Below, piece after piece: positions 16,134 through 19,429 of a DNA stretch of 32,843 bases. Below the pieces are notes generated by a model. That model searched no databases and was not told the DNA's origin. It saw only the letters and a list, made by a program, of their open reading frames with translations. The DNA comes from Chitinophaga pinensis (lineage in GTDB: Bacteria; Bacteroidota; Bacteroidia; NS11-12g; UBA955), in the NCBI GenBank assembly GCA_945863965.1, contig CAMBBZ010000006.1, positions 1-32,843 on the forward strand. Reading direction: 5' to 3'. The first letter of the stretch is position 1. Every line of letters begins with the position of its first letter. A program made the position numbers and the translations under genes.

Positions 16134-17837
16134 CTAGGTGGCGCTCAAGCCCTGCAATCGCTTTAATATAGCTTTGGGACCGTAACCGGCTAATTCGTAA
16201 AGAATGGAATTATTGCCGTGGGTAATGAAGGTGTCATCGATTCCCAAGTGTTGCCATTGAGCGGGTAACTGAGTTCCGAGTTCTTGTTTTAAAAAGTTGC
16301 CGATGCCTCCGGTTATAATGCCATCTTCAATGGTAATTATATGGGTATAGGTATCAAGATTGGTAATGGGGGGAAGGGGTTTGAGGCGCGCTAGGTGGAG
16401 CCAATCGACAAGAAGGGGTTCGAGGTGTTCTTCGATTTCCCCCAAAAGTTCGGTGGTTTTACCCGTGGTTATGCATAAAATACGGCTGTCGACCCTTTGT
16501 TTTAGCCAAGTTAAGGGCTGGGTAAACGCCGTTTTTATTGCCGGTAAGGGTCCTTTGGGATAGCGTATGCAAACGGGCTGCGGGTGGTTGAGCGATTCGT
16601 TTAGGGCGTAAACGAGTTCGTTTTCGTTAGCGGGCGACCATATTTGGATATTGGGTATAGGGAGAAGGAAGGCAAGGTCGAATACGCCGTGATGGGTAGG
16701 ACCGTCTTCGCCCACCAACCCTGCTCTATCGATACATACCGTAACGGGCAGTTCTTGAAGTGCAATATCGTGAATGAATTGATCGTAAGCGCGTTGCAAA
16801 AAGGTGCTGTAGATAGCCACAAATGGTTTTTTACCCGCTTGGGCAATTCCGGCGGCAAAGGTGAGGGCATGTTGTTCGGCAATGGTGACATCGACAAATC
16901 GTTCGGGAAAGGCATTAATGGCTTTCGACAATCCGCTAGAGCTGGGCATTGCAGGGGTAATTCCCATGACTTTGGGGTGCTTGGTTGCCAAGTCAAAGAT
17001 GGCATCTCCGAAGGCTTCGTGCCAAGCTCTTTTTGGGGAACTATGCGGTTGTACTTTTACATACTTAGGGGCGCTATGCCATTTGGTTTGTTCTATTTCA
17101 GCTGGGGCGTATCCTTTTCCTTTGATGGTTTTAACATGCAGTAGTTTCGGACCTTTAACCGCTTGTATGGAATGGATGGCCGTGGTAAGTTCAGCAATAT
17201 CATGTCCGTTTACAGGTCCTCCGTAATGGAGTCCAAAAAATTCAAACCACGATTGAAGTTCGGCAGCATTGGCTTGGTGAATGGCTCCGGCATTAGGGTC
17301 AATCCCCATTCCGTTATCATTAAATACAATTAATACATCGAGCGGATTGCTTTTAAGGTTATTGAGGGCCTCAAAGCTCATGCCACCCGTTAGGGCGCCG
17401 TCGCCAACGATACTAATTACGGTATGTTGTTGGGAGGGGGGCAGGTCGTATTGCGCCCAAGCCATCCCCATAGCGGCCGATATGGCGGTACTTGAGTGTC
17501 CGGTACCGAATGAATCGTAGGTACTTTCTGTTAATTTGGGAAATCCTGAAATACCCTCATAGGTGCGGATATGTTTAATATGTTCTTTACGGTGGGTTAG
17601 GATTTTAAAGGGATAACTTTGGTGACCTACATCCCAAATATAGCGATGCTGCGGAACCGGATAGGCCTTCATTAAGGTTACACAAAGTTCCACGACGCCT
17701 AAATTGGCGGCGAAATGTCCGCCTGAGTTTAAAATGGTTTCAATTATATATGCTCTTAGGTCTTCACAAAATTGGGGTAATTCGTTAAAATTCAATATTG
17801 ACAGGTCTTTGGGGTCCTGGTATTGGTGAAAATCCAT
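16134..17837 (-). CDS. dxs: 1-deoxy-D-xylulose-5-phosphate synthase
   Basis: Thiamine-diphosphate enzyme that joins pyruvate and glyceraldehyde-3-phosphate, the entry step of the MEP isoprenoid pathway. Landmarks: ANLGVVELCVTLM, WDVGHQSYPFKILTHR, GHSSTAISAAMGMA, the TPP/Mg motif GDGALTGGMSFEALNN...FNDNGMGIDPN, and the transketolase-C region TIAEQHALTFAAGIAQAG, YSTFLQRAYDQ and DRAGLVGEDGPTHHG. It has 567 residues against about 620 in E. coli; the C-terminal domain and central linker look compact, as in other Bacteroidota enzymes, and no key motif is missing. It is a single-gene unit convergent with tsaB-pabA across an 85-base gap. Confidence 0.97.
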   Translation of the reverse strand: MDFHQYQDPKDLSILNFNELPQFCEDLRAYIIETILNSGGHFAANLGVVELCVTLMKAYPVPQHRYIWDVGHQSYPFKILTHRKEHIKHIRTYEGISGFPKLTESTYDSFGTGHSSTAISAAMGMAWAQYDLPPSQQHTVISIVGDGALTGGMSFEALNNLKSNPLDVLIVFNDNGMGIDPNAGAIHQANAAELQSWFEFFGLHYGGPVNGHDIAELTTAIHSIQAVKGPKLLHVKTIKGKGYAPAEIEQTKWHSAPKYVKVQPHSSPKRAWHEAFGDAIFDLATKHPKVMGITPAMPSSSGLSKAINAFPERFVDVTIAEQHALTFAAGIAQAGKKPFVAIYSTFLQRAYDQFIHDIALQELPVTVCIDRAGLVGEDGPTHHGVFDLAFLLPIPNIQIWSPANENELVYALNESLNHPQPVCIRYPKGPLPAIKTAFTQPLTWLKQRVDSRILCITTGKTTELLGEIEEHLEPLLVDWLHLARLKPLPPITNLDTYTHIITIEDGIITGGIGNFLKQELGTQLPAQWQHLGIDDTFITHGNNSILYELAGYGPKAILKRLQGLSAT

Positions 17838-17947
17838 AGTGCAAATTACGGCGATATTTTTAGGTTCTTGAGATGGATATTACTAAATAGAGTCCTTTGA
17901 ATTAATAAATTCAGCAATATTTTGGTAATTTTCATCGGAAATTTAAT

Positions 17948-17967
17948 AAGTTTTTAATTTAAAACTT
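17948..17967. promoter_or_regulatory. Candidate operator palindrome upstream of the AT-hook gene
   Basis: AAGTTTTTAATTTAAAACTT: 7-base arms AAGTTTT and AAAACTT around a 6-base centre. Its right arm overlaps the candidate -33 TTG (17966-17968). A second short inverted repeat GAATT-AATA-AATTC lies at 17899-17912. Both are all-A/T-core sites of the kind AT-hook proteins bind, so autoregulation is a possibility only. Confidence 0.35.
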
Positions 17968-17996
17968 GTGTACCTAAAAATAATTAACTTTTTTTG
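17966..17996 (+). promoter_or_regulatory. Candidate promoter TTG-N20-TTTTTTTG for the AT-hook gene
   Basis: TTG at 17966-17968 and TTTTTTTG at 17989-17996, 20 bases apart; the -7 differs from TAnnTTTG at one base. The predicted leader is about 35 bases. The dxs and AT-hook genes share this 199-base AT-rich gap, which otherwise holds nothing I recognise. Confidence 0.4.
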
Positions 17997-18036
17997 TGAC
18001 TAGAACTTAATAGTACTTTATAACACTTAGTCAAAA

Positions 18037-18645
18037 ATGGAACAACCAACACAACCAAAAAAGAGAGGGAGGAAGCCCGGATCTAAAAACAAAACTAAAC
18101 GTGCAACCCTTAAAGGTTCAGGCAATTCTAGTTCGATTTTTGCTGAATTGGAGCGTGAACTTGGCAGTATGCTCAATCAAATTCATAAGGCTCAAGATAC
18201 CGCAGCCCGTGAATTAGAGCGCTTGGAAATAAAGCACTCACGTGAGTTGGAAAAACAAAAAGCGAAATTAGAAACGTCTGCAAATCTGTGGAAAAATCGC
18301 GCCAAAGAATACCGTAAAAAACTAACGGTATCGGGCACGCGCAGAGGTAAAGTAGGGCGTCCTGCTAGTGCATCTTCAGCCAAGCGTGGCAGGCCAGTTG
18401 GTTCTGCGGGTCGCAAGGGTGGAGGCCGCAAAAAAGCGGGCGAATTAACCAAACGTGATATAATTTTAAGTTTCGTTAAAGAACAAAACACGGCGTTGAC
18501 TTCACGTCAACTAATCGATGCCTTATTCTTAACGAGTGGTGAAAATGACAGAAAGCGTTTCTCTCAAGGTGTATATACAACCTTAACTTTGATGTACAAC
18601 AGAGGAGATTTAAAGAAAAAAGGGACCTTAATTACGCTTGCGTAA
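18037..18645 (+). CDS. AT-hook, coiled-coil, winged-helix-like DNA-binding protein
   Basis: Not a family I can name. The 202-residue, very basic protein has three visible parts. Residues 8-20 carry an AT-hook with extended basic tail (KKRGRKPGSKNKT). Residues about 34-95 are strongly heptad-like and charged (ELERELGSMLNQIHKAQ, LERLEIKHSRELEKQKAKLE), a predicted coiled coil for dimerising. Residues 101-133 hold two more GRP hooks (KVGRPA, KRGRPVGS) and a RKGGGRKK basic patch. Residues about 135-202 form a small helical domain (TKRDIILSFVKEQNTALTSRQLIDALF...RKRFSQGVYTTLTLMYNRGDLKKKG) shaped like a winged helix. I infer a nucleoid or regulatory protein that bridges A/T-rich DNA. It is a lone gene with its own terminator and ends by overlapping prmC. 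Confidence 0.82.
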   Translation: MEQPTQPKKRGRKPGSKNKTKRATLKGSGNSSSIFAELERELGSMLNQIHKAQDTAARELERLEIKHSRELEKQKAKLETSANLWKNRAKEYRKKLTVSGTRRGKVGRPASASSAKRGRPVGSAGRKGGGRKKAGELTKRDIILSFVKEQNTALTSRQLIDALFLTSGENDRKRFSQGVYTTLTLMYNRGDLKKKGTLITLA

Positions 18646-18646
18646 T
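18631..18646. repeat. Palindrome spanning both convergent stop codons
   Basis: ATTACGCTTGCGTAAT: 7-base arms with a 2-base centre (or 6-base arms with a CTTG loop). Read on the plus strand it encodes ITLA-stop of the AT-hook protein; on the minus strand it encodes ITQA-stop of PrmC. On the minus strand it is followed after 9 bases by TTTTTTC, so it may act as a weak terminator for the panD-prmC operon. Confidence 0.7.
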
Positions 18647-19429
18647 CACTTTCTTTATTACTTTTATAAATCGAGGGTTTCCAGAGAAATCCTCGATTTT
18701 TTTTGCTTCTAATTTCAAACTATTAAATACAGCTATGGTTTCCTGCCATAAAAATTGGTTAATTTCAAACCAAAATTCACCCGATGGGGTATGTTCAGAA
18801 AAAAGTGTTGCCATTTTTTTGTAAAATATTAGCGGATCCTCACCTGCAAATAGTGCGCTATGGGGCTCATGCAGGGTAACCTTATTGGATAAAGAAGACT
18901 TTTCTTGGATAGAAATATAGGGAGGATTTGATATCCAAATATCGGCCTTGGGTAGTAAATGTAATTTTAGGATATCGCCCAATTGAAATTTTAACCGGTT
19001 GCTGACCCCTAGTGATTCTGCATTATTGCGGGCTACATCCAGCGCATCATTGGAAATGTCTAAACCCATAGCGGTCCAGTTAGGTCGTTCCTTGAGCAAG
19101 GTAATGGGAATACATCCGGAACCGGTGCCTAAGTCGATTATGTGTTTAGGGGTATTGGAATGTTCATTTAGAATGAGCTCGCAAAGTTCTTCGGTTTCCG
19201 GCCGAGGAATTAACGTGTGCTTGTTAACATGAAACGTATAGCGATGAAAAAATGCGCGTTGCGTAATATATTGAATGGGTTCCAATTGGTGTAAGCGCGC
19301 CGAAATTTCGTCTAAAGAAACAGTGCCTTGGTAATCGTTTAAATGCAGTATTATACTATTAATTTCGTCTGTCGTGTACTGGTGTTGCAGCTTTTGTCGG
19401 AGTATATCGAGTTCAATCTTACTTATCAT
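18632..19429 (-). CDS. prmC: Release factor glutamine methyltransferase
   Basis: SAM-dependent N5-glutamine methyltransferase that modifies the GGQ motif of release factors RF1/RF2. The catalytic motif NPPY is present (ADIWISNPPYISI), preceded by the SAM site IIDLGTGSGCIPITLL and the pre-motif FLIPRPETEEL-like segment HTLIPRPETEELCELIL; LHEPHSALFAGEDPL follows. Length is 265 residues, slightly shorter than the usual 275-290, with a short N-terminal helical domain. It is last of the panD-led operon and overlaps its upstream neighbour by 11 bases. Its 3' end overlaps the AT-hook gene by 14 bases and contains that gene's terminator on the opposite strand. Confidence 0.96.
   Translation of the reverse strand: MISKIELDILRQKLQHQYTTDEINSIILHLNDYQGTVSLDEISARLHQLEPIQYITQRAFFHRYTFHVNKHTLIPRPETEELCELILNEHSNTPKHIIDLGTGSGCIPITLLKERPNWTAMGLDISNDALDVARNNAESLGVSNRLKFQLGDILKLHLLPKADIWISNPPYISIQEKSSLSNKVTLHEPHSALFAGEDPLIFYKKMATLFSEHTPSGEFWFEINQFLWQETIAVFNSLKLEAKKIEDFSGNPRFIKVIKKVITQA
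18668..18704 (+). terminator. AT-hook gene terminator embedded inside prmC
   Basis: A 14-base stem with one G-T pair, AAATCGAGGGTTTC (18668-18681) with GAAATCCTCGATTT (18686-18699), loop CAGA, and an 8-base T-run (18697-18704). It is a strong plus-strand terminator 22 bases after the AT-hook stop, yet all of it is coding sequence of prmC on the minus strand. The minus strand has no T-run after the stem, so prmC can read through. Confidence 0.9.

Follow-up and report, generated by a model that had tools for sequence, protein, structure and literature searches.

H-NS-like proteins are known from Proteobacteria, Actinobacteria, and Bacillus, and histone-H1-like bacterial proteins include Pseudomonas AlgP. 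In the open-access literature, we found no H-NS-like protein described in Bacteroidota. The H-NS-like plan places an oligomerising domain at the N-terminus, followed by a linker and a C-terminal DNA-binding domain (PMC6936261), and H-NS and Lsr2 carry AT-hook-like QGR/RGR motifs (PMC6212790, PMC6936261). The Bacillus xenogeneic silencer Rok (PDB 5ZUX/5ZUZ) possesses a winged helix with the base-reading residues N154, T156, and R174 (PMC6212790). Hc2, a histone-H1-like protein of Chlamydia, is a DNA-binding protein with a variable number of lysine-rich pentamers (PMC2848022).

The protein considered here, of 202 aa, is encoded at positions 18037 to 18645 (+ strand, ATG start) of the window, by which we mean the whole stretch of 32,843 nucleotides that was analysed, and it combines AT-hooks, a coil, and a predicted winged helix. 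The open reading frame is a real gene, and its product is conserved at 27%–77% identity across 26 other sequences. With a rough probability of 0.6, we regard it as a lineage-specific, dimeric, A/T-preferring nucleoid-associated (architectural) protein that would work like H-NS or Rok. The initial annotation had read it as a dimeric A/T-DNA-binding or nucleoid-bridging protein, and this still offers the best explanation, in which we infer dimerisation and DNA binding together with A/T preference, bridging, and silencing. The predicted winged helix, a profile match biased toward Rok, and the H1-like or AT-hook tails of syntenic relatives all strengthen this explanation.

Similar to H-NS, Lsr2, and MvaT, the protein has a basic linker, and we propose for it an oligomerising N-terminal domain and C-terminal binding to the A/T minor groove. 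However, there is no sequence match with these proteins; in the present protein the coil has true AT-hooks on both sides, and the C-terminus is predicted to fold as a winged helix. PF00816 (H-NS C-terminal domain) gave no match in the 202-aa protein or in its own whole genome, with a positive E. coli control, and this genome encodes two HU-type proteins. HMGA and CarD-type proteins also resemble it in having several AT-hooks for the A/T-rich minor groove, but the RNA-polymerase-interacting N-terminal domain of CarD was not found here in the Pfam search.

Modules of the 202-aa protein

The N-terminal AT-hook (KKRGRKPGSKNK, residues 8–19; positions 18058 to 18093, + strand) contains G11, R12, G15, S16, K17, and N18 as invariant residues in 27 sequences, and its columns are invariant or nearly so across the family alignment. 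Between the coil and the winged helix lies a basic and disordered linker (residues 105–131; positions 18349 to 18429, + strand) that carries GRP hooks at G107-R-P and G118-R-P and is GR-rich up to R131. The G107/R108 and G118/R119/P120 columns are likewise invariant or nearly so. The N-terminal hook, the two further GRP hooks, and the basic patch of the initial annotation are all borne out. Five GR[PK] cores occur in the protein (residues 11, 107, 118, 125, and 130); shuffled versions of its sequence are expected to hold 0.32, and none of 5000 reached five. Two basic segments carry net charges of +9 and +11. GRP cores flanked by basic residues, by which AT-hooks are recognised, are therefore present; the Pfam AT_hook model was not among the Pfam matches of the window protein, and it scored above its cut-off in a distant relative (L089). 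Hooks of the KKRGRKPGSKNK type were also observed at or near the C-terminus of proteins that we take, from the appearance of their sequences, to be a glycogen/starch synthase-like protein of a Succiniclasticum MAG (L056:1654-3714), an AraC-like regulator of Prevotella (L055:5530-6084), and a dehydrogenase-like protein of a Clostridiales MAG (L057:4543-6180). These proteins are unrelated and match through the AT-hook only, and they were rejected as relatives.

AlphaFold2 models, built on alignments of the window and locus sequences, predict a single long amphipathic helix of 68 residues (residues 31–98; positions 18127 to 18330, + strand) with block pLDDT values of 80–95 that fall to 70 at the end, and we propose this helix as the dimerisation coil. 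Family-averaged hydrophobicity peaks at a period of 3.667, which corresponds to a hendecad and was equalled by none of 4000 shuffles, whereas the heptad period of 3.5 was not significant in the same test (0.26). The coil had been described as long and heptad-rich; its length agrees with the predicted helix, but its period does not, and a canonical heptad coil was rejected in favour of the hendecad.

In the same models, residues 99–138 form a disordered and basic linker, and the C-terminal domain (residues 139–202; positions 18451 to 18642, + strand) is predicted to contain helices at 139–150, 156–167, and 172–189 and strands at 192–195 and 198–201. This is a winged-helix topology, in which the H1-(S1)-H2-H3-S2-wing-S3 order is found, with a mean pLDDT of 84.7 over residues 126–202, and it agrees with the small, helical, winged-helix-like domain first noted. 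Within the domain, conservation is highest along helix 3 (QG-YTTLTQ-Y). Its Foldseek neighbours are mostly winged helices and mainly DNA binders, including Zur/Fur, HOP2, and E2F-DP, with Rok at rank 14 (PDB) and linker histone H1 at rank 47, all of them at E > 0.001. For the full-length model, the viral fold neighbours include three Rok winged-helix proteins at ranks 4, 46, and 47, none below 0.001. Winged helices resemble one another, which limits the weight of such neighbours.

Similarity to Rok and distribution of the family

Profile–profile comparison (hhalign) used Rok homologues taken from Bacillus plasmids. The isolated winged helix matched Rok with a probability of 78.6% and a score of 31.6, compared with 17.7 for the Fur winged helix, the sole control family; none of 150 column shuffles scored above 16.4. 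The match is moderate and comes from the isolated winged helix only, with the full-length profile reaching a probability of 5.6%. A profile search (hmmsearch) gave a non-significant E-value of 0.72 for Rok in the PDB, and no Rok family was among the Pfam/NCBIfam matches of the 202-aa protein. Taken over three routes (PDB profile, fold, and profile–profile searches), Rok is the closest winged helix found.

The two proteins are alike in length (191 aa in Rok and 202 aa here), in having an N-terminal coiled region and a linker, and in a C-terminal winged helix whose elements follow one another in the same order, and Rok gave the best profile match among those tested. However, Rok has no AT-hook and a neutral linker, it belongs to a different phylum, and the profile match is limited to the segment from helix 1 to the beginning of helix 3. 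In the hhalign alignment, D171 and K173 stand opposite N154 and T156 of Rok, and the wing (KKKG/KxDGG) has no arginine for R174. Because the base-reading residues of Rok are not conserved, the 202-aa protein is not filed as Rok.

The family was unassigned in the initial annotation and has stayed so, as no matching Pfam, NCBIfam, or solved-structure family was found; sequence searches of Pfam, NCBIfam, PHROGs, and the PDB returned weak, inconsistent, or low-complexity matches only. Relatives are present in 38 of the 108 genomes of the order, all within the window's own family, in a near-constant single copy per genome (the sole genome with two matches has both at contig ends). The protein family is confined to this one family of uncultured lake Bacteroidota, and a single genome (G343) matched outside it among 345 drawn from the class. 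Beyond the window's own genome, a phylum-wide search gave only short marginal matches of about 17–49 positions, some with internal stops, which were excluded from the relatives. No relative was found in the viral contigs and plasmids searched.

Distant kin are sporadic in other orders of the class. Those in G343, G059, and G137 combine AT-hooks and a winged helix with a coil-like segment at the N-terminus, and their profile comparison with the window family gave a probability of 97.5% over 77 columns. Conservation outside close relatives, on which the original interpretation depended, is therefore divided: the protein family is confined to one family, but it has clear distant kin in other orders, and the interpretation survives narrowly. 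Read by eye, a protein of G111 (L143:1006-1953) has a coil-like N-terminus, a winged-helix-like middle, and several C-terminal AT-hooks, so that the parts are shared but differently ordered. In G059 and G137 (L088 and L089), a MoxR-type AAA ATPase gene stands immediately upstream of the distant relative and in the same orientation.

The dxs/prmC locus and its differing tails

The gene is flanked by two conserved neighbours, a divergent dxs (1-deoxy-xylulose-5-phosphate synthase; positions 16134 to 17837, − strand) and a convergent prmC (release-factor glutamine methyltransferase; positions 18632 to 19429, − strand), the latter overlapping it by 14 bp. We take these names from the appearance of the sequences and established knowledge. 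The gene thus stands alone, as had been stated, and among the loci listed, dxs and prmC flank it in every family locus checked in which the contig is long enough. In ten genomes sampled from the family (genera g3, g6, g9, g11, and g325), which form one clade on the Dxs tree, other genes lie beside dxs; therefore, the gene is not universally needed in the family. Its absence from G003 and G007, both of the window's genus, is best read as assembly gaps; prmC appears in both as weak matches only, the dxs of G003 runs off the contig end, and G007 gave no dxs match.

At the same locus, the AT-hook-coil body is joined to other tails. In G773 (complete ORF, 255 aa) and in G775, whose ORF is cut by the contig end, 8-residue lysine repeats come after it, and in G020 a K/A/P-rich tail does. 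G773 and G020 end in histone-H1-like K/A/P/V repeats instead of a winged helix, and the order-wide search listed no winged-helix match for the genomes G773, G775, and G020. The bodies are homologous to that of the window family in hhalign (E 1.9e-21 for G773 and 1.8e-19 for G020, both pairwise E-values on lysine-rich sequence), and the Dxs tree, with well-supported branches, places at least two separate changes behind the H1-like form. The lysine/alanine/proline tails of G020 and G773 resemble Hc2-type proteins of Chlamydia, but the window protein has no such tail, and a Pfam search of the G020 protein gave no HC2 match. In G739, the dxs/prmC locus encodes a 139-aa coil with about six arrayed hooks (48-bp repeat). 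Profile comparison with the window family gave 3% with no detectable sequence homology, and we do not treat the G739 protein as an established homologue, the agreement being in position and parts only. The DNA of the G773 tail consists of 14 tandem copies of a 24-bp unit (L136:579-907), and that of the G739 hook array of 4.2 copies of a 48-bp unit (L123:1008-1207). Because tandem DNA repeats encode these tails, their length probably varies by slippage.

We read these loci as those of an architectural protein in which the coil and hooks are the fixed part and a further DNA-binding tail is the variable part. The hendecad helix would join two subunits, while the N-terminal AT-hook and the GRP hooks of the linker would hold A/T-rich DNA by its minor groove. 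Each subunit would add a second contact, made by the helix and wing of its C-terminal domain. With a pair of winged helices and at least six hooks, such a dimer could coat or bridge A/T-rich segments, and the outcome may be DNA compaction and probably the silencing of A/T-rich promoters, as for H-NS and Rok. The protein family is undescribed and lineage-restricted, and its architecture, as far as sequences and models tell, makes a strong case for a role in organising A/T-rich DNA. More tentatively, and short of an even chance in our estimation, it may be the equivalent of H-NS and Rok in a Bacteroidota lineage, namely an undescribed family of xenogeneic silencers whose hendecad coil bears both true AT-hooks and a winged helix, and in which the DNA-binding tail would be exchangeable in evolution while the body and locus are fixed. 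The candidate is compact and clearly modular and occupies a single genomic locus, and its natural tail swaps would permit a direct test of whether winged helices, lysine repeats, and AT-hook arrays are functionally interchangeable in the organisation of bacterial chromatin.

The constant combination of a coil, A/T hooks, and a basic or DNA-binding tail therefore fits architectural binding better than regulation at one operator. It is possible, albeit unlikely, that the protein is a sequence-specific transcription regulator whose winged helix reads one operator, perhaps in its own promoter or that of dxs, with the AT-hooks serving to anchor it nearby. Winged helices usually read specific sites, the strongest conservation of the domain falls on helix 3, and the divergent neighbour dxs is constant. 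However, dxs and prmC are unrelated housekeeping genes, and in two lineages the same locus encodes low-complexity lysine repeats rather than a winged helix, which a one-operator regulator could hardly tolerate. The intergenic region shared with the divergent dxs (positions 17838 to 18036, + strand), with its putative promoters, is indeed very A/T-rich, as first noted: its A+T content of 76% is the highest among nine intergenic gaps above 40 bp measured in the window. The two inverted repeats reported in it are at chance level (2 seen vs 1.6 expected, P = 0.42) and were rejected as operators.

Less probable still is a compaction or accessory factor of the histone H1 or HMGA type, acting without dimerisation through many weak contacts with the minor groove and backbone and through a winged helix in the style of linker histones. 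The H1-like repeat tails of G020 and G773, the Foldseek rank of linker histone H1, and the two strongly basic segments are consistent with such a factor, but nearly all members keep the 68-residue amphipathic hendecad helix, which argues for a coiled-coil dimer. Binding to RNA, for which the N-terminal hook and its basic residues would act as an extended AT-hook (eAT-hook), is very improbable: the motif is known from Tip5, and PMC11354804 cites a paper that reports it as RNA-binding, but the basic residues of described eAT-hooks lie 12 residues from the hook and are much nearer here, the Pfam "RNA binding Region" (RBR) match (residues 2–21, E 0.0033) is below the cut-off, is confined to the hook, and was rejected as an assignment, and the winged-helix fold neighbours are mainly DNA binders.

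A hairpin within prmC

Downstream of the gene, a terminator hairpin with a 14 bp stem, a CAGA loop, and a T-run (positions 18668 to 18699, + strand) lies within the convergent prmC ORF. The terminator that had been called private to the gene thus exists as a hairpin with a T-run, but it is not private, as it coincides with prmC codons 244–254 (KIEDFSGNPRF). Both arms vary in relatives while pairing is kept (for example, CGAGG/CCTCG, CGGAG/CTCCG, and CGCAG/CTGCG). Because the arms change in sequence yet stay a hairpin, this is probably a real terminator inside prmC, and the joint change of both arms suggests that selection may act on the hairpin within the coding sequence. Hairpins within the last prmC codons were observed in the window's genus and in some others (at the same position in L019-L058), and other relatives carry a different G/C-rich hairpin in its place.
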